From: Pseudothermotoga elfii DSM 9442 = NBRC 107921
Lineage (GTDB): Bacteria > Thermotogota > Thermotogae > Thermotogales > DSM-5069
DNA length: 64,000 nt
Assembly: GCF_000504085.1 (NCBI RefSeq)
Contig: NC_022792.1
Coordinates: 1,950,001 to 2,014,000, forward strand
Direction: 5' to 3'
The position numbers and the translations under genes were made by a program. Under the pieces are notes generated by a model that saw only the letters and a list, made by a program, of their open reading frames with translations, had not been told where the DNA came from and did no database searches. Shown here piece after piece: positions 39,599 to 46,160 of the stretch (its first letter is position 1; every line of letters begins with the position of its first letter).

Positions 39599-40756
39599 TC
39601 AAAGAATCTCCGCACTCAGAAAAATAATCACTTCTCTTTGACTTTGAGAATCCGATTTAACTCCAAATAAATACCTCAGTAAGGGTATATTCCCAAGTAA
39701 TGGGATGCCAGTGTAACCGTCAGAAGAGTTTTCAACAGTCAAGCCACTTATGACAACTGTCTGGCCGCTCTGTATACGTAGAGTAGTAGATAGCTCGCTT
39801 CTCTTAGTTGATAACGAGCTCGTTGTTTGAGCAGTTGTAAAATGACTTATGTTTGGTGCAACATTTATCTCAAGCTCATTTTTACCAACAACCCGTGCTG
39901 TGATATCAATTCCTACACCAACATCAACTGTTTCGGTTGTTGTAGTCCCTTCCTCGGGTTGCAGAATAATGATCTCTCTCTGGCCCACAAAAAGCCTTGC
40001 CGGCTTGTTTTCCTGAACTATAATCCAGGGATCAGCTTTTATCTTCGCTTTCTGATCCTGTTCCAAAGCTCTGAGTCTTGCAACAATGGTACCAAAAACG
40101 TCTGTCTGAACAGACAATACACCTGAAATCAGCCCAAGAACAGCTGTCCAGTCTTCGTTATACTGTTGATTGGCTCCAAACGTGTAACCGATCTGATCCA
40201 GACCTATTTCTCCCAAATTATCCTTAGAGACCTCTGAGACAACTACACTTATCTTTACCTGCCTTGGTGGTATGTCGATATTTTTTAAATCCTCTTCAAA
40301 CTTCGCTATTATTTGTTCCGGTGCAGTTATTGTTATCAAATTGTTCTCGGTGTCTATTTTTATAAAAGGTTCATAGAAAGAGGGAAGCAAATTTCGAATT
40401 GAATCGACTTTCAAATAAGATGGTTTTATTACTTTCGTTTGAACAAGATAACGGAAAGCAGGGTTTTTTGGATCAGGTGCACCGACAAAATAGAACCCGT
40501 CAACTTTTATAAAAGTATATCCACCCGGCATAAGAATCATTTTCAAAGCTTTTTCGAGTGGTACTTCATTCAGCTCTATAGTGACAAAACCACTGACGGT
40601 AGTATCTGCAATAATTGGCACACCACTTTGAGCAGAGATATCTGCAAGAGCATCAAGTATATAGGTATCCTGAAAAATATTTGTCACAAGAGGCTCTTCC
40701 TCAGCAAGTGATGTTAAAGCTATTAAAAAAACTATCAATATGGAGAACCTTTTCAT
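39599..40756 (-). CDS. Short secretin (type II/III secretion GspD/PilQ-like)
   Basis: The 385-residue protein has a signal peptide, an STN-type domain (about 27-95, IFQDTYILDALADISAQSG), one N1-type domain (about 105-180, VIKPSYLKVDSIRNLLPSF) and a secretin core with AKIKADPWIIVQENKPA, VVISGLTVENS and IPLLGNIPLLRYLFG. Full GspD or PilQ proteins are about 600-700 residues with several N domains, so this is a minimal form. It could form a multimeric outer-membrane pore. No GspE, GspF or prepilin gene is nearby, which argues for a stand-alone or different export route. Its start overlaps the chaperone-like gene by 4 bases. Confidence 0.88.
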   Translation of the reverse strand: MKRFSILIVFLIALTSLAEEEPLVTNIFQDTYILDALADISAQSGVPIIADTTVSGFVTIELNEVPLEKALKMILMPGGYTFIKVDGFYFVGAPDPKNPAFRYLVQTKVIKPSYLKVDSIRNLLPSFYEPFIKIDTENNLITITAPEQIIAKFEEDLKNIDIPPRQVKISVVVSEVSKDNLGEIGLDQIGYTFGANQQYNEDWTAVLGLISGVLSVQTDVFGTIVARLRALEQDQKAKIKADPWIIVQENKPARLFVGQREIIILQPEEGTTTTETVDVGVGIDITARVVGKNELEINVAPNISHFTTAQTTSSLSTKRSELSTTLRIQSGQTVVISGLTVENSSDGYTGIPLLGNIPLLRYLFGVKSDSQSQREVIIFLSAEIL

Positions 40757-42390
40757 TTCTCCTCGCCCCCCTCTAATCTGATCCTCTTTCTCAATATAAT
40801 TGGCTGGCTATCTCCAAAATCTATTCTTGCAACAACTTCATATTCGCCCGGTTGCATTTGAATTGGGAGCATCACCCCATAAATTCTCTCGGCACCTGGA
40901 AGAATAGGCACTTCTCCAGAATAAGAAGCACTGACGAGCCTTTCTGTACTTTCTGGAAGTATTATGCCACTTTCTTCTTCCTGCTGCGGGATAACCTTTT
41001 CAAGACCAACTATTATTGAAGGAATGATGTGATAATTTCCGTCATTTTTGATTAGCACATCGACATTCAAACCATCCGTGGTTGGCTGAATTAAGTGAAA
41101 ATCCGCTGAAAGTTTTTTAACTATGGTTTCATCTGAGCCTACATAAACCAGAAGATTAGCTCCAAATTCAGTTTTTACATTCTCATTTGAAGAAGAAAAC
41201 ACCAGATCGAAGTAATATCCACCAAGAGCATCTTCTGGAGGTTTGGCAATAATTCTCAATTTTCGGGTTTGATTTGGTTTCAGTTCAAATGAATCTGGTG
41301 ATACTTCTACCCAATCAACTGTTTCCTGTCTATCTTCAATCGGAACAAGTTCACCATTAATATCGTATTCAAGCGGGTAAATCGAAGCATTTATCCGCGC
41401 AACCTCGTCTCCTCGGTTCGTAACACTGATTAATGTGCTTCTAAAAGTTCTTGGCATTGCCCTTAATTCTATATTTCCAGGTTCAATATAAAACATCGGG
41501 ACATCGCTTACCTTCGTTTGCTCAACTTGAGCCGCGTCTCCTTTAACAGAAAACTGAGTTTCGACAATAGCAGGTCTATGGCCTCCATAATTAACAACAG
41601 CTTTTGCTATGTAATCTCCTGGAGGAAACTTTCTGGTAGTGATACTCCTAACTTTCACAGTAGTTTCTGGCAATATAACTCCTCTGCCAGAACCAAGAGG
41701 CATCTTTACCAACGTTCTACCTTCTGATGTCTTAATAGTTAACTCTCCTGTTGTCTGCACATGAAGATTGCTCTTGTTTAAAACTGAAACACTGAACACC
41801 GTGGCATCCTTTCCAATCATATTTGCTATTTCAACCAAACTGGGAATTTCGTTTATTTTCTGAACTTCAAAATCAACAGCATACGCTTCTATTCTTCTTC
41901 GCCCTGTTTCCACAGTTAACTCTAAAAAACTCGCAAGTTGAAATTGAAACTGAACTGCAAAACCCACAGCCTCTTCCATAATTTGTGGCGTCTGTTCAGG
42001 AGGAACAATCTTAAACACAACAGCCGCATACCTTCCACCTGCGACCCCACGTGGAACACTCACATTCACAGTAACCTGTCTGCCAGAACCTGGTGAAATG
42101 GTGAAAATTTCTGGATCAACCCTAATCCACTTTGCGGCAGAATATTTTGTTGAGCCAGCCGGAGCAATGTTGTACATTCCGTTGATATCCTCAACTACAT
42201 CTTCCACCTTCGCTTCTATAGTTACCGAATTGAACGGATCAGAATTTTCCAGATAAACCTCGTAGCTGAATTGACTTCCCTGAGCGACTGATTTTGTTAC
42301 AACCAGTGGATCAAGCCTGATATTGAAAGTTCCCTGAGAAAAGATGTTTGTGCAGGCAAGTATCAAAAAAACATATAAAAATTTTTTCAA
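40753..42390 (-). CDS. Secreted two-module Ig-like protein (DUF916/pilus chaperone-like)
   Basis: The 545-residue protein has a signal peptide (MKKFLYVFLILACTNIFS) and two copies of a beta-sandwich pair. Copy one begins FNIRLDPLVVTKSVAQGSQF and contains WIRVDPEIFTISPGSGRQV with PRGVAGGRYAAVVFKI. Copy two begins FYIEPGNIELRAMPRTF and contains WVEVSPDSFELKPNQTRKL with PEDALGGYYFDLVFSS. The pattern (W-V-P-x-x-F-L-x-P-G/N, then G-x-Y-x-V-F) is that of DUF916-type and periplasmic pilus-chaperone-like domains. It may stabilise or anchor the secreted proteins encoded upstream. The assignment is by pattern, not by a search. Confidence 0.75.
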   Translation of the reverse strand: MKKFLYVFLILACTNIFSQGTFNIRLDPLVVTKSVAQGSQFSYEVYLENSDPFNSVTIEAKVEDVVEDINGMYNIAPAGSTKYSAAKWIRVDPEIFTISPGSGRQVTVNVSVPRGVAGGRYAAVVFKIVPPEQTPQIMEEAVGFAVQFQFQLASFLELTVETGRRRIEAYAVDFEVQKINEIPSLVEIANMIGKDATVFSVSVLNKSNLHVQTTGELTIKTSEGRTLVKMPLGSGRGVILPETTVKVRSITTRKFPPGDYIAKAVVNYGGHRPAIVETQFSVKGDAAQVEQTKVSDVPMFYIEPGNIELRAMPRTFRSTLISVTNRGDEVARINASIYPLEYDINGELVPIEDRQETVDWVEVSPDSFELKPNQTRKLRIIAKPPEDALGGYYFDLVFSSSNENVKTEFGANLLVYVGSDETIVKKLSADFHLIQPTTDGLNVDVLIKNDGNYHIIPSIIVGLEKVIPQQEEESGIILPESTERLVSASYSGEVPILPGAERIYGVMLPIQMQPGEYEVVARIDFGDSQPIILRKRIRLEGGEEK

Positions 42391-42412
42391 GCAAATTCAC
42401 CCCAATCCTTCT

Positions 42413-42448
42413 TGCTTAAAAACAGTAGGGGGAAAATTCCCCCTACTG
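42413..42448 (-). terminator. Intra-operon rho-independent terminator
   Basis: A perfect hairpin with 12-base arms (cagtagggggaa and ttccccctactg, 42423-42448) is followed on the minus strand by TTTTT. It lies between the second secreted-protein gene and the chaperone-like gene. Such a strong structure should release most transcripts after the two subunit genes and lower expression of the downstream three. Confidence 0.85.
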
Positions 42449-42468
42449 CCTTTCCTGCTCAATGATTT

Positions 42469-43146
42469 TCAGAAATTATAATTTCCAGTCTCTCCATCAA
42501 TCCATGGCATCTGCCTCTGTAACGTTATTGTTATAACACCGCTGTCTCTATAAACTCCAGCAGAATTGCATTCCACAACCTGGATCATGTTCCAGAGTTT
42601 TCTGCTTATTCCTTCGTGAAGCTCCGCACTGTCTGGTATAAACACAGTTGTTTCATTCATTTCTGCAGCAGCTGCCATCTCCTCAATGCCGCTTGGAAGG
42701 TTACCTATACCGTAAGCGTACCATGCATTGATGTATTCATTGACCGCAGTATCAAACGGATCTGCACCTGGAACAAACGTTGGACTCGCAAAATCACTGA
42801 AGCTGATAACTATTTCACCATTGCTCTGGATAAGGAAGCTGATACAATCTGTTATGTACGTTCCAGGTTTTCTAACATACCATGTCCATTTTGTTCCATC
42901 AATCTGCCAATTAACCCACTGGGCAACCTGAACTTCTGTTTCGAAATTAATTGTCCAGTTGAATTTGTCGCACGAACCGTTGGCAGCTCCACTCTTGAAA
43001 GCTTTCGCTGTTGTTGATGTGCTGTTCATATCCAGTGCAACCCACTCATTCTCCAATAATTGCCAGACTGTCAATTCCTCTGTTGCAAATACTGCAAGTG
43101 CCGTTACTGCAAGAATCGCAATGATAAAAATAAGACCTTTCCTCAT
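42469..43146 (-). CDS. Secreted surface-type protein, smaller paralogue
   Basis: The 225-residue protein has a signal peptide (MRKGLIFIIAILAVTALAVFA) and is beta-rich with many Trp, Asn and Thr residues. Two blocks recur in the 355-residue protein encoded just upstream: WTWYVRKPGTYITDCISF (there AWYIKKPGKYMTNAFEV) and a C-terminal SAGVYRDSGVITITLQ (there SAGIYRNTGTITFTVQ). The latter resembles the last strands of fimbrial or spore-coat-U type subunits. I therefore see it as a structural surface protein. GGAGGGAATTTTT precedes the ATG. No named family is recognised. Confidence 0.75.
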   Translation of the reverse strand: MRKGLIFIIAILAVTALAVFATEELTVWQLLENEWVALDMNSTSTTAKAFKSGAANGSCDKFNWTINFETEVQVAQWVNWQIDGTKWTWYVRKPGTYITDCISFLIQSNGEIVISFSDFASPTFVPGADPFDTAVNEYINAWYAYGIGNLPSGIEEMAAAAEMNETTVFIPDSAELHEGISRKLWNMIQVVECNSAGVYRDSGVITITLQRQMPWIDGETGNYNF

Positions 43147-43182
43147 AAAAATTCCCTCCTTTTCACCCTCCTGGGTGAGATT

Positions 43183-44250
43183 TTAGAATTGCTCAATATA
43201 AGCTTTTGTGTTTTGAACAGTAAATGTTATTGTGCCAGTGTTTCTGTAAATTCCCGCCGACTGAGTTTTCAAATCCACAAGTTGATAAAAATTCAGATTT
43301 GAAACTCCAGCTTTAACTGTCACTATCCAGTTGTTGAGGTTTTCTGCTGGTATCCAGTTGAATTCACCGGCAAGATCATCACTAATAGCATAAAAAACAC
43401 TTATATCTTTAACCCCTATCCCCCCCTGTGGCTTGACATTGTCGAAATTTTTAAAACTTATTGTCACTGAATCTGTACTGTTTATGGTCACCTCAAATGC
43501 GTTTGTCATATACTTTCCCGGTTTTTTGATATACCAGGCAATTTTCGAACTGGACACTCTCACACTCATTCTGCTTGGTGGATTTCCTCCTGCCCAGGCT
43601 GTTTCAAACTGGCTATTTCTATTCACACTCAGGTGAAGGAGAATATAAATTTTTTTGAAATCCTGGCACTTGTTGCGTATATTAACAACGTACTCAAATT
43701 CGCTCACATATGGATCATGATTCACCTTATATGGATATTGCCCTGGAGATTGATTACCAGATGGCTCCGTCTCAGTTATGTTTAAATGCGATTCACTGGC
43801 TAACCATCCATCAAGTAGCTCAAATTTAACATGAAGTTCCCCACTTTCAATCCAGACAGTTGTTGTGCCTATGTTCATGTTTTGCGCTGCTATTAACCCA
43901 AAGAATTTCTTCTCTGAAAATCTTCCTACTTCATACTCTATGTAATAAAACCACTGCCTGTTACCCTTTGATGTCGATGATTCTGCAAGAAATGGATCAA
44001 TTGTTATTGGATCAATGACTATTGATCCATCTAAGGGAACAGATACAGATGTGCTGGAAAAATTCAACTGTCCAGCTTCTGGCAGTATTATCTGTGATTC
44101 AACGGGATCAACTTTTTTCCAAAGACCAGTGATTGGGTCGTATTTAAAAACTCTTGGTGAATAAGAAAGTGCAACTGTGGTTATGAGAGTTATCAAAATA
44201 GCAATTATTAAGTTTCTAAGAAATGGGTTACTGTCCATCTGATCTATCAC
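43183..44250 (-). CDS. Secreted surface-type protein, larger paralogue
   Basis: The 355-residue protein has an N-terminal hydrophobic anchor or uncleaved signal (NLIIAILITLITTVALSY) and a beta-rich extracytoplasmic part. It shares KKPGKYMTNAFEVTINSTDS-type and SAGIYRNTGTITFTVQ blocks with the next gene's product, and it has extra N-terminal sequence with Ser/Thr-rich strands. AGGAGG is 2 bases from ATG 44256 but 8 from GTG 44250, so I choose GTG. It is the first gene of the envelope operon and may be the tip or base subunit of a fibre. Function is inference. Confidence 0.72.
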   Translation of the reverse strand: MIDQMDSNPFLRNLIIAILITLITTVALSYSPRVFKYDPITGLWKKVDPVESQIILPEAGQLNFSSTSVSVPLDGSIVIDPITIDPFLAESSTSKGNRQWFYYIEYEVGRFSEKKFFGLIAAQNMNIGTTTVWIESGELHVKFELLDGWLASESHLNITETEPSGNQSPGQYPYKVNHDPYVSEFEYVVNIRNKCQDFKKIYILLHLSVNRNSQFETAWAGGNPPSRMSVRVSSSKIAWYIKKPGKYMTNAFEVTINSTDSVTISFKNFDNVKPQGGIGVKDISVFYAISDDLAGEFNWIPAENLNNWIVTVKAGVSNLNFYQLVDLKTQSAGIYRNTGTITFTVQNTKAYIEQF

Positions 44251-44339
44251 CCTCATAACCTCCTGGTAATCAATCTATACTGGGTGATAAAAAAATGATG
44301 AAAAAATATCTGATAAAACGTTGAAAATTCACTCAAAAT

Positions 44340-44374
44340 GTGCTGAAAATAATTGAAGGCGAGCAAAGCTCGCC
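44340..44374 (-). terminator. Probable terminator of trpB2
   Basis: ggcgagc-aaa-gctcgcc (44358-44374) is followed on the minus strand by TTCAATTATTTTC. The U tract is imperfect but the hairpin is strong, and it lies 17 bases past the trpB2 stop. Confidence 0.6.
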
Positions 44375-44390: not shown

Positions 44391-45659
44391 TTATATATAA
44401 GCAGTCAGGTCAAATAACCCATGTCCACTGAGATTAAAAACAACAACTCTCGGAATATTGTGCTCTTTTGCTTTTTTTGCTTCTCTTATAGCACCAGCTA
44501 TCGCATACGAACTTTCCGGAGCAGGGACTATTCCTTCAAGTTTAGCAAAAAGCTTCGCCGCCGAAAAAATTTCATCCTGGTCGAACGCAACAGCTTCAAT
44601 AAGACCTTCTTTCACAAGTCTTGAAATAATTGGGGCTGCACCGTGATAACGCAAACCACCTGCATGAATCTTTGGAGGTATGAAATCTTTTCCAAGTGTG
44701 TACATTTTCAAAAGTGGTGTCATGCTTGCTGTATCACCATAATCGTAATCATATCTACCCCTGGTAAGAGAGGGACATGCCGTTGGTTCGCACGCAACAA
44801 ATTTGATTTCTTTTCCTGAAAGTTTGTCTGGAATAAACGGCAAAACAGTTCCACCAAAATTTGAACCGCCTCCATGGCATCCAAGTATCACGTCTGGCTT
44901 CTCACCAAGTACCTCAAGTTGCTTTTTCAACTCAAGACCTATCACCGTCTGGTGAAGCAAAACATGGTTTAAAACACTGCCAAGTGAATATTTGGTTCTG
45001 GAATCCGATAGAGTTATCTCAATAGCTTCACTTATTGCAATCCCAAGGCTTCCAGGGTTCTCGCTGTTGCTTGCAAGAATTGATTTACCAAAACTGGTTT
45101 TCTCGCTTGGACTTGGAACAACATCACCATCAAAAAGTCTCATCAAATACTTTCTCATGGGTTTTTGTTCATAACTGATCTTTACCATGAAAACATTCAC
45201 TTTCAGTCCAAACTTTGCACCTGAGTAACAAAGCGCGCTCCCCCATTGTCCTGCACCTGTCTCAGTAACAAGCCTTTCTGTGCCTGAGATTTTGTTGTAA
45301 TAAGCCTGGGCAAGGGCTGTGTTTGTTTTATGGCTTCCAGTTGGACTTGCACCTTCATACTTGTAGTAAATTCTTGCTGGCGTCTGTAAAAACTCCTCGA
45401 GGTAGGTTGCCCTAAACAAAGGCGTTGGTCTAAAAACAGCATATTCTTCAAGAACTGGTTCTGGTATTGGAATTTCACGTTTGTCAGTGACTTCTTGCTC
45501 AATCAACGGCATTGGAAAAATAGCAGAAAGCATATCCGGTGATATGGGCTGTTTTGTTTTTGGATCCAGTGGGGGATCGAGTTTAAAAGGCAAATCAGAC
45601 AGCACATTGTACCAGTACCTTGGAATCTCATCAACTTTCAAATCCACCCTGATTCTCAT
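44391..45659 (-). CDS. Tryptophan synthase beta chain, TrpB2 type
   Basis: The 422-residue PLP enzyme is of the longer TrpB2 form, with the N-terminal [12 protein letters not shown] extension typical of that group. The PLP lysine is in [18 protein letters not shown], the phosphate-binding Gly loop is [10 protein letters not shown], and [12 protein letters not shown] is the catalytic-Glu region. TrpB2 makes tryptophan from indole and serine without a matching TrpA, and some members prefer phosphoserine. I start at ATG 45659 behind GGAGGTGG. It stands alone, and its leader carries a tryptophan attenuator, so it is expressed when Trp-tRNA is scarce. Confidence 0.95.
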
Positions 45660-45680: not shown

Positions 45681-45718
45681 TTAAAATAAAAAAAGGGCTC
45701 TCTTTGTTAAGAGAGCCC
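45681..45718 (-). terminator. Attenuator terminator upstream of trpB2
   Basis: A perfect 10-base stem, gggctctctt and aagagagccc with a 4-base loop (45695-45718), is followed on the minus strand by TTTTTTTATTTT. It ends 22 bases before the trpB2 ATG, so read-through is required for expression. Confidence 0.93.
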
Positions 45719-45766
45719 CAATTCGGTGTAATAAAACAATAGCGATACTACCCCACCGAATCGGGG
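45716..45766 (-). promoter_or_regulatory. Antiterminator pairing segments of the trp attenuator
   Basis: The minus-strand segment ccccgattcggtg (45766-45754) can pair over 13 bases (one G-U) with caccgaattgggg (45728-45716), and the second segment includes the first three bases of the terminator stem. A competing hairpin, ggtactgcccc with ggggtagtatc, overlaps the Trp-Trp-Tyr codons. Ribosome position on the leader peptide would choose between them. Confidence 0.75.
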
Positions 45767-45825
45767 CAGTACCACCACCACATGATATTTGATCTTACAT
45801 CTCTACTCAGAATAAAGCACTTCAT
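45748..45825 (-). CDS. trpL: Trp leader peptide (attenuator)
   Basis: A 25-codon open frame starts at ATG 45825 with GAGGTG 5 bases upstream and ends at TAG 45748. Codons 16-18 are three consecutive TGG (Trp), followed by Tyr and Cys; the end reads IMWWWYCPDSVG. Trp is encoded by a single rare codon, so three in a row in so short a peptide, immediately before alternative hairpins and a terminator, is diagnostic of transcription attenuation. Scarce Trp-tRNA would stall the ribosome here and favour read-through into trpB2. The peptide itself probably has no other function. Confidence 0.93.
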   Translation of the reverse strand: MKCFILSRDVRSNIMWWWYCPDSVG

Positions 45826-45846
45826 AACAGCACCTCTTTTTTGGAA

Positions 45847-45875
45847 AGTTTACACCCAAAAAAGCAAAAAGTCAA
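45847..45875 (-). promoter_or_regulatory. Promoter of the trpL-trpB2 transcript
   Basis: On the minus strand TTGACT (45875-45870), exactly 17 bases, TAAACT (45852-45847). Start of transcription near 45840 gives a leader RNA of about 180 bases. A weaker plus-strand promoter for the small membrane protein (TTGATA at 45879, TAAAAT at 45904, 19-base spacer) overlaps it. Confidence 0.85.
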
Positions 45876-45944: not shown

Positions 45945-46160
45945 ATGCTATATTTTTTTGCGGTCTTAGGGGTCATTTTCCTGATCTATCTTTTCTTCAA
46001 GCTATTTCCGCTTTTTGCTGGATTTGCGGGTATATTATTGGCAGCAGTTATAGTAGCACTGCTCTTTTTTGGGCTTCTTGTAATTGCCCTGCCTCTACTT
46101 CTTATAATCCTTGTCATACTGGGAATAGTCTGGATCGTAAGACTTCTGAAAAAAGCCTGA
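45945..46160 (+). CDS. Small hydrophobic membrane protein
   Basis: The 71-residue protein is nearly all Leu, Ile, Val, Phe and Ala in two long hydrophobic stretches, ending in the basic tail VRLLKKA. There is no recognisable family. The site AAGGAGGGG 6 bases before the ATG is excellent, and an AT-rich promoter region shared with trpL lies upstream, so I consider it a real gene. It is convergent with the GT2 gene, two bases away. Confidence 0.7.
   Translation: MLYFFAVLGVIFLIYLFFKLFPLFAGFAGILLAAVIVALLFFGLLVIALPLLLIILVILGIVWIVRLLKKA

Follow-up and report, generated by a model that had tools for sequence, protein, structure and literature searches.

A predicted ribosome-mediated tryptophan attenuator in front of a lone trpB2 gene in Thermotogota

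Introduction

Ribosome-mediated attenuation by tryptophan has long been known from the trp operon of E. coli. A survey based on Rfam models, in which 11 Thermotogales genomes were included, concluded that amino-acid attenuators may originate in gamma-proteobacteria and have seen very few transfers (PMC3766115). A search of the open-access literature turned up no earlier description of Trp leaders from Thermotogota, though a prior mention elsewhere is possible. Both the phylum-wide occurrence of such leaders and their lone trpB2 target appear to be unreported in open papers.

The role of TrpB2 has long been open. The enzyme was reportedly described in Thermotoga maritima by Hettwer and Sterner in 2002. 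Passages of PMC11917138 credit TrpB2 enzymes with a high affinity for indole (citing Hettwer and Sterner 2002) and with a preference for O-phosphoserine (citing Busch et al. 2014). Here we describe the region upstream of trpB2 in a DNA stretch of 64,000 nucleotides (the window; the whole of the stretch that was analysed), from a complete genome that by sequence closeness lies in or near Pseudothermotoga, with the relative G010 in the same genus. Our analysis indicates that the leader of this gene is very probably a classical ribosome-mediated Trp attenuator, which would enable indole-to-Trp salvage under Trp starvation.

Results and Discussion

The leader, the gene behind it and the probable end of the transcript comprise the following features.

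45870..45875, minus strand: -35 box TTGACT; a TTGAC(A/T) - ~17 - TA.AAT layout is common to L002-L009
45847..45852, minus strand: -10 box TAAACT; relatives have TATAAT or TAATAT in the same place
45831..45836, minus strand: Shine-Dalgarno sequence of the leader ORF, GAGGTG; most relatives have (A)GAGGTG ahead of the leader start
45748..45825, minus strand: trpL-like leader peptide ORF, MKCFILSRDVRSNIMWWWYCPDSVG, 25 aa, stop TAG; counterparts in relatives with WWW leaders
45772..45780, minus strand: sensor, the consecutive Trp codons TGG TGG TGG
~45736..45781, minus strand: 1:2 pause hairpin (-27.4 kcal/mol at 37 C), which contains the Trp codons as well as the stop codon of the leader
45754..45766, minus strand: antiterminator segment 2, CCCCGATTCGGTG
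45716..45728, minus strand: antiterminator segment 3, CACCGAATTGGGG, 13 bp with segment 2
45688..45719, minus strand: intrinsic terminator 3:4, GGGGCTCTCTT-AACA-AAGAGAGCCCT, plus U tract (stem 45719-45694, U tract to 45688)
44391..45659, minus strand: trpB2, TrpB-like PLP enzyme of 422 aa from ATG 45659 (TIGR01415)
44358..44374, minus strand: hairpin GGCGAGC-TTT-GCTCGCC past the trpB2 stop; a similar G+C-rich hairpin in the nearest relatives

The original prediction had named a promoter TTGACT-17-TAAACT, a 25-codon ORF with a Shine-Dalgarno sequence and three TGG codons, and a 13-bp antiterminator overlapping a strong terminator. All of this was borne out: the promoter occupies 45875-45847 with a spacer of 17, and 45766-45754 pairs with 45728-45716, the GGGG being common to terminator 3:4 and antiterminator 2:3. 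Three stems (1:2, 2:3 and 3:4) are thus in competition. The leader RNA (45840-45681) folds at -57.2 kcal/mol, while shuffled sequences average -36.0 (z -6.1; as low in 0/200 shuffles), and at 66 C the predicted stabilities are -14.1 (1:2), -10.8 (2:3) and -10.0 kcal/mol (3:4). The -35/-10 layout is preserved throughout family f1. A divergent small hydrophobic ORF of 71 aa (window 45945-46160, plus strand) begins some 70 bases upstream from the trpB2 promoter.

The site is unique in its genome. Among 28 TGGTGGTGG sites genome-wide, only the trpB2 leader combines a short ORF clear of long ones with a terminator and a gene start downstream; none of the 28 belongs to another WWW leader, so nothing in the window genome points to a broader Trp regulon of this type.

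From these elements we infer ribosome stalling, read-through in vivo that responds to tryptophan, and indole as the substrate, in the following way. Transcription would start near 45840 and yield a leader of ~150 nt. With plentiful charged tRNA-Trp, the ribosome would pass the WWW codons, reach the UAG and cover segments 1 and 2; the 3:4 terminator would then form and transcription would stop before trpB2. With scarce charged tRNA-Trp, the ribosome would stall on WWW and block segment 1, segment 2 would pair with segment 3 (13 bp), the 5' arm of the terminator would be taken, and RNA polymerase would continue into trpB2. TrpB2 would then couple indole, most likely external and obtained by salvage, with serine (or O-phosphoserine) to give tryptophan. 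The hallmarks of such attenuators are present: a short ORF with a ribosome-binding site and tandem cognate codons, an intrinsic terminator between this ORF and the structural gene, an antiterminator that overlaps the 5' arm of the terminator and competes with the upstream stem holding the sensor codons, and alternative stems that co-vary in relatives.

The gene product is a TrpB2, since it scores 680 bits with TIGR01415 (cut-off 519) and only 149 with the TrpB1 model TIGR00263 (cut-off 392). It belongs to the same family as the TrpB2 (TIGR01415) enzymes of Thermotoga (~80% identical), and its best PDB matches include the solved TrpB2 structures 4qys and 6hte. Translation probably starts at ATG 45659, because the upstream GTG 45668 falls within the Shine-Dalgarno sequence GGAGGTG. 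As the hairpin past the stop codon recurs in relatives, trpB2 is probably transcribed alone, in a unit that ends at 44358..44374. Beyond trpB2, the same strand carries three genes (window 40753-44256, minus strand) whose products are probably exported and have no assigned role; in close relatives an ORF of similar size (~357 aa) stands after trpB2.

Conservation of Trp codons and stems in relatives had been set beforehand as the test that could refute the prediction, and both are kept in the great majority. Our sample comprised 103 Thermotogota genomes, 75 of them with TrpB2; two loci were cut by a contig edge, leaving 73 testable. A leader ORF with a run of Trp codons precedes trpB2 in 65/73 of these, and each of the 65 has a terminator downstream of the Trp codons. 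In an order-level subset (45 genomes), trpB2 genes other than those of one clade have a short ORF with WWW or WWWW upstream. The eight leaderless genes (8/73) all fall into one clade that has a full trp operon, genera g12 and g13 of a single family, and all eight genomes have TrpA. Genus g13 is apparently Thermotoga itself; here trpB2 stands without a leader peptide, alongside a full trp operon including trpB1.

Some loci deviate in gene order. At L191 (G013:C1:1930000-1933500) an insertion-sequence-like gene sits between leader and trpB2, parting the switch from its gene. In family f2, a LivK-type ABC-transporter substrate-binding protein gene is found between leader and trpB2 at L190 (genome G011) and after trpB2 at L030 and L031. 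The LivK-like protein beside the leader and trpB2 in these f2 genomes may serve to import tryptophan or indole and may be governed by the switch as well.

The pairing logic is conserved along with the codons. The 2:3 antiterminator is stronger than 95% of segment-2 composition shuffles in 63/65 leaders (median z -5.1), the control being a mononucleotide shuffle and the related genomes not being independent of each other; in the leader L184, which reads WYWW, no convincing antiterminator is seen. In 65/65 leaders the antiterminator and the 5' arm of the terminator share at least 3 nt, and in 65/65 a competing upstream fold also engages segment 2; the Trp codons are paired within this fold in 58/65. 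The antiterminator arms themselves differ by family: CCCCGATTCGGTG/CACCGAATTGGGG in f1, GGCAATTGTCC/GGACAATTGCC in one f2 group and CCCCCGATCTG/CAGATCGGGGG in f3. Divergent as the arms are between families, the pairing nevertheless holds inside each leader. When arms were swapped across families, the mean fell from -28.4 kcal/mol (own pairing) to -15.7 kcal/mol, and in 43/65 leaders the own arms were better than every swapped partner. Within family f1, 98% of the cells of the 2:3 helix are paired and three pairs have changed on both sides, a covariation score that only 8/500 shuffles reached; slid versions of the helix are 23-54% paired. In family f8 both the 2:3 and the 3:4 helices behave like the f1 2:3 helix. 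Co-variation of the alternative stems is hence modest within families and strong across them.

These pairings also bear on a nascent-peptide sensor of the TnaC type, in which the WWW peptide would bind free tryptophan inside the ribosome and stall it, the RNA stems being secondary. Such a sensor could account for the residues after WWW that are common within several families (WWWTTGGCPP, WWWxxGNCPPPLSW, WWWSCPFGGG). Between families, however, these residues are wholly different, yet pairing of the encoded segment 2 with segment 3 is seen in every case; moreover, the polarity, with a Trp-making enzyme behind a Trp run, suits stalling upon starvation. TnaC is not known to need a WWW run. We regard the peptide-sensor scenario as very improbable.

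Even less credible is control of trpB2 by a different Trp sensor, of which the terminator would merely be a part. T-box, TRAP and TrpR-type repressors are the other known bacterial Trp controls, yet none of them explains an in-frame WWW. Rfam scans matched no T-box at either gathering or lax thresholds, no TRAP gene was found in the window genome, and no TrpR exceeded the cut-off in the 103 Thermotogota genomes. At the gathering threshold Rfam placed no family at the leader (only tRNAs elsewhere), and at the lax threshold the leader gave only weak chance matches; the Trp_leader model RF00513 did not match the window leader even at E values up to 1.

In the complete window genome no TrpA, TrpC or TrpF was found by searches that were positive in control genomes including Thermotoga maritima, nor was a second TrpB (TrpB1). 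The single PF00591 match lies in a 439-aa frame, the length of which fits a pyrimidine nucleoside phosphorylase better than TrpD, so it was not counted as a TrpD. With TrpA, TrpC, TrpF and TrpB1 absent, TrpB2 is, judging from these searches, the only tryptophan-synthesis enzyme found in the window genome. Since no other tested gene for the last steps of the pathway was found, salvage of external indole is most likely. Across the phylum, 56/65 leader-bearing TrpB2 genes occur in genomes without TrpA (Fisher p 2e-6, relatedness ignored). Together with the missing genes of the window genome, this distribution strengthens the suggestion that TrpB2 acts as a regulated tryptophan-synthesis or indole-salvage step. 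The link between leader and pathway loss is not strict, because the leader is missing before eight TrpB2 genes and TrpA also occurs in 9 leader-bearing genomes.

The attenuator could also be real and TrpB2 still have another role in Trp metabolism, for instance with an internal source of indole or another amino-acid donor in place of external-indole salvage. The O-phosphoserine preference reported for TrpB2 enzymes (Busch et al. 2014, cited in PMC11917138) would agree with such a role, as would the fact that a dedicated indole transporter was not identified and the position of the LivK-type gene, after trpB2 in two f2 loci and between leader and trpB2 in the third (G011). The reported high indole affinity (Hettwer and Sterner 2002, cited in PMC11917138) speaks against it, and so does the window genome, in which no indole-making gene was found: TrpA and TrpC are absent, and there is no match to an E. 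coli-type tryptophanase (a strict model with an uneven control). We consider this other role unlikely, though clearly less so than a different sensor, and prefer external-indole salvage.

WWW leaders are not confined to trpB2. Complete trp operons with a WWW leader before the first trp gene were found at L039, which we take to be P. thermarum-like, at L192 and L193, presumably Petrotoga-like, and at L194, L196, L198 and L199; the trp-operon leader of L195 has WW. Leader ORF and terminator were located as follows.

L039:1463-1643, operon strand: trp-operon WWW leader ORF and terminator
L192:1992-2079, operon strand: trp-operon WWW leader ORF and terminator
L193:1849-1933, operon strand: trp-operon WWW leader ORF and terminator
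L194:5087-5177, operon strand: trp-operon WWW leader ORF and terminator
L198:3641-3689, operon strand: trp-operon WWW leader ORF and terminator
L199:4688-4781, operon strand: trp-operon WWW leader ORF and terminator

As complete trp operons carry it too, the WWW signal seems to mark tryptophan synthesis generally in the phylum, and predicted Trp attenuation in Thermotogota covers de novo synthesis as well. No WWW leader was seen in Thermotoga-like trpE upstream regions. The trpB2 leader L178 and the trp-operon leader L194, both from one genus (family f8), have nearly the same terminator arm, ATCGGGGATCTT, and this near-identity suggests that one operon obtained its switch as a copy of the other's.

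Beyond Thermotogota, the majority of the fetched TrpB2 loci have no such leader. A Melioribacter MAG (L087) shows a WWW leader ORF and terminators 231 bases before TrpB2. In Roizmanbacteria-type (CPR) loci (L084, L090, L117, L095 and, weakly, L113) a short WW leader ORF (e.g. NNWWTSNLW) is followed by a terminator and then by TrpB2; the leader lies ~100-230 bases before trpB2, and a TrpR-like gene lies upstream of the leader ORF. By its gene content, the Roizmanbacteria-type arrangement would put a lone trpB2 under both a repressor and an attenuator.

Conclusions

A predicted tryptophan-starvation switch that a phylum has kept before a lone TrpB2, while the rest of the pathway was lost, is strong circumstantial evidence for tryptophan production by this enzyme, with scavenged indole as the most likely source, and makes its long-open role testable. 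With this switch, classical ribosome-mediated attenuation would extend to a deep-branching phylum of thermophiles, in contrast to the gamma-proteobacterial origin proposed by the Rfam survey (PMC3766115). It would also be an RNA switch that relies on coupled translation yet has to operate in the heat. We are inclined to go one step further, with distinctly less certainty than for the attenuator itself: the Trp attenuator may well be ancestral in Thermotogota and independent of the proteobacterial one, and would define the job of TrpB2 as a starvation-induced indole salvage enzyme, retained where the rest of the trp pathway was lost.

Among known systems, the proteobacterial trp operon attenuator, E. 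coli trpL (RF00513), shares with the window leader the short ORF with tandem Trp codons, the 1:2 pause, 2:3 antiterminator and 3:4 terminator structures, the leader stop near segment 2 and a Trp-synthesis gene downstream. Unlike E. coli trpL, the trpB2 leaders have three (or four) consecutive Trp codons and no TrpR partner, the window leader has no detectable covariance-model match, and the target is a lone trpB2 in a deep-branching thermophilic phylum. The classical Trp attenuators of actinobacteria (PMC1262725), compared here by description, likewise have a Trp-containing leader peptide and competing hairpins; they differ in that they belong to another phylum, while the Thermotogota target is trpB2 alone. 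Within the phylum itself, the trpEGDCFBA leaders (Petrotoga-like, P. thermarum-like and other Thermotogota) have the same order of WWW leader ORF and terminator, in family f8 with almost the terminator arm of the trpB2 leader; unlike the trpB2 leader, they precede a whole trp operon.
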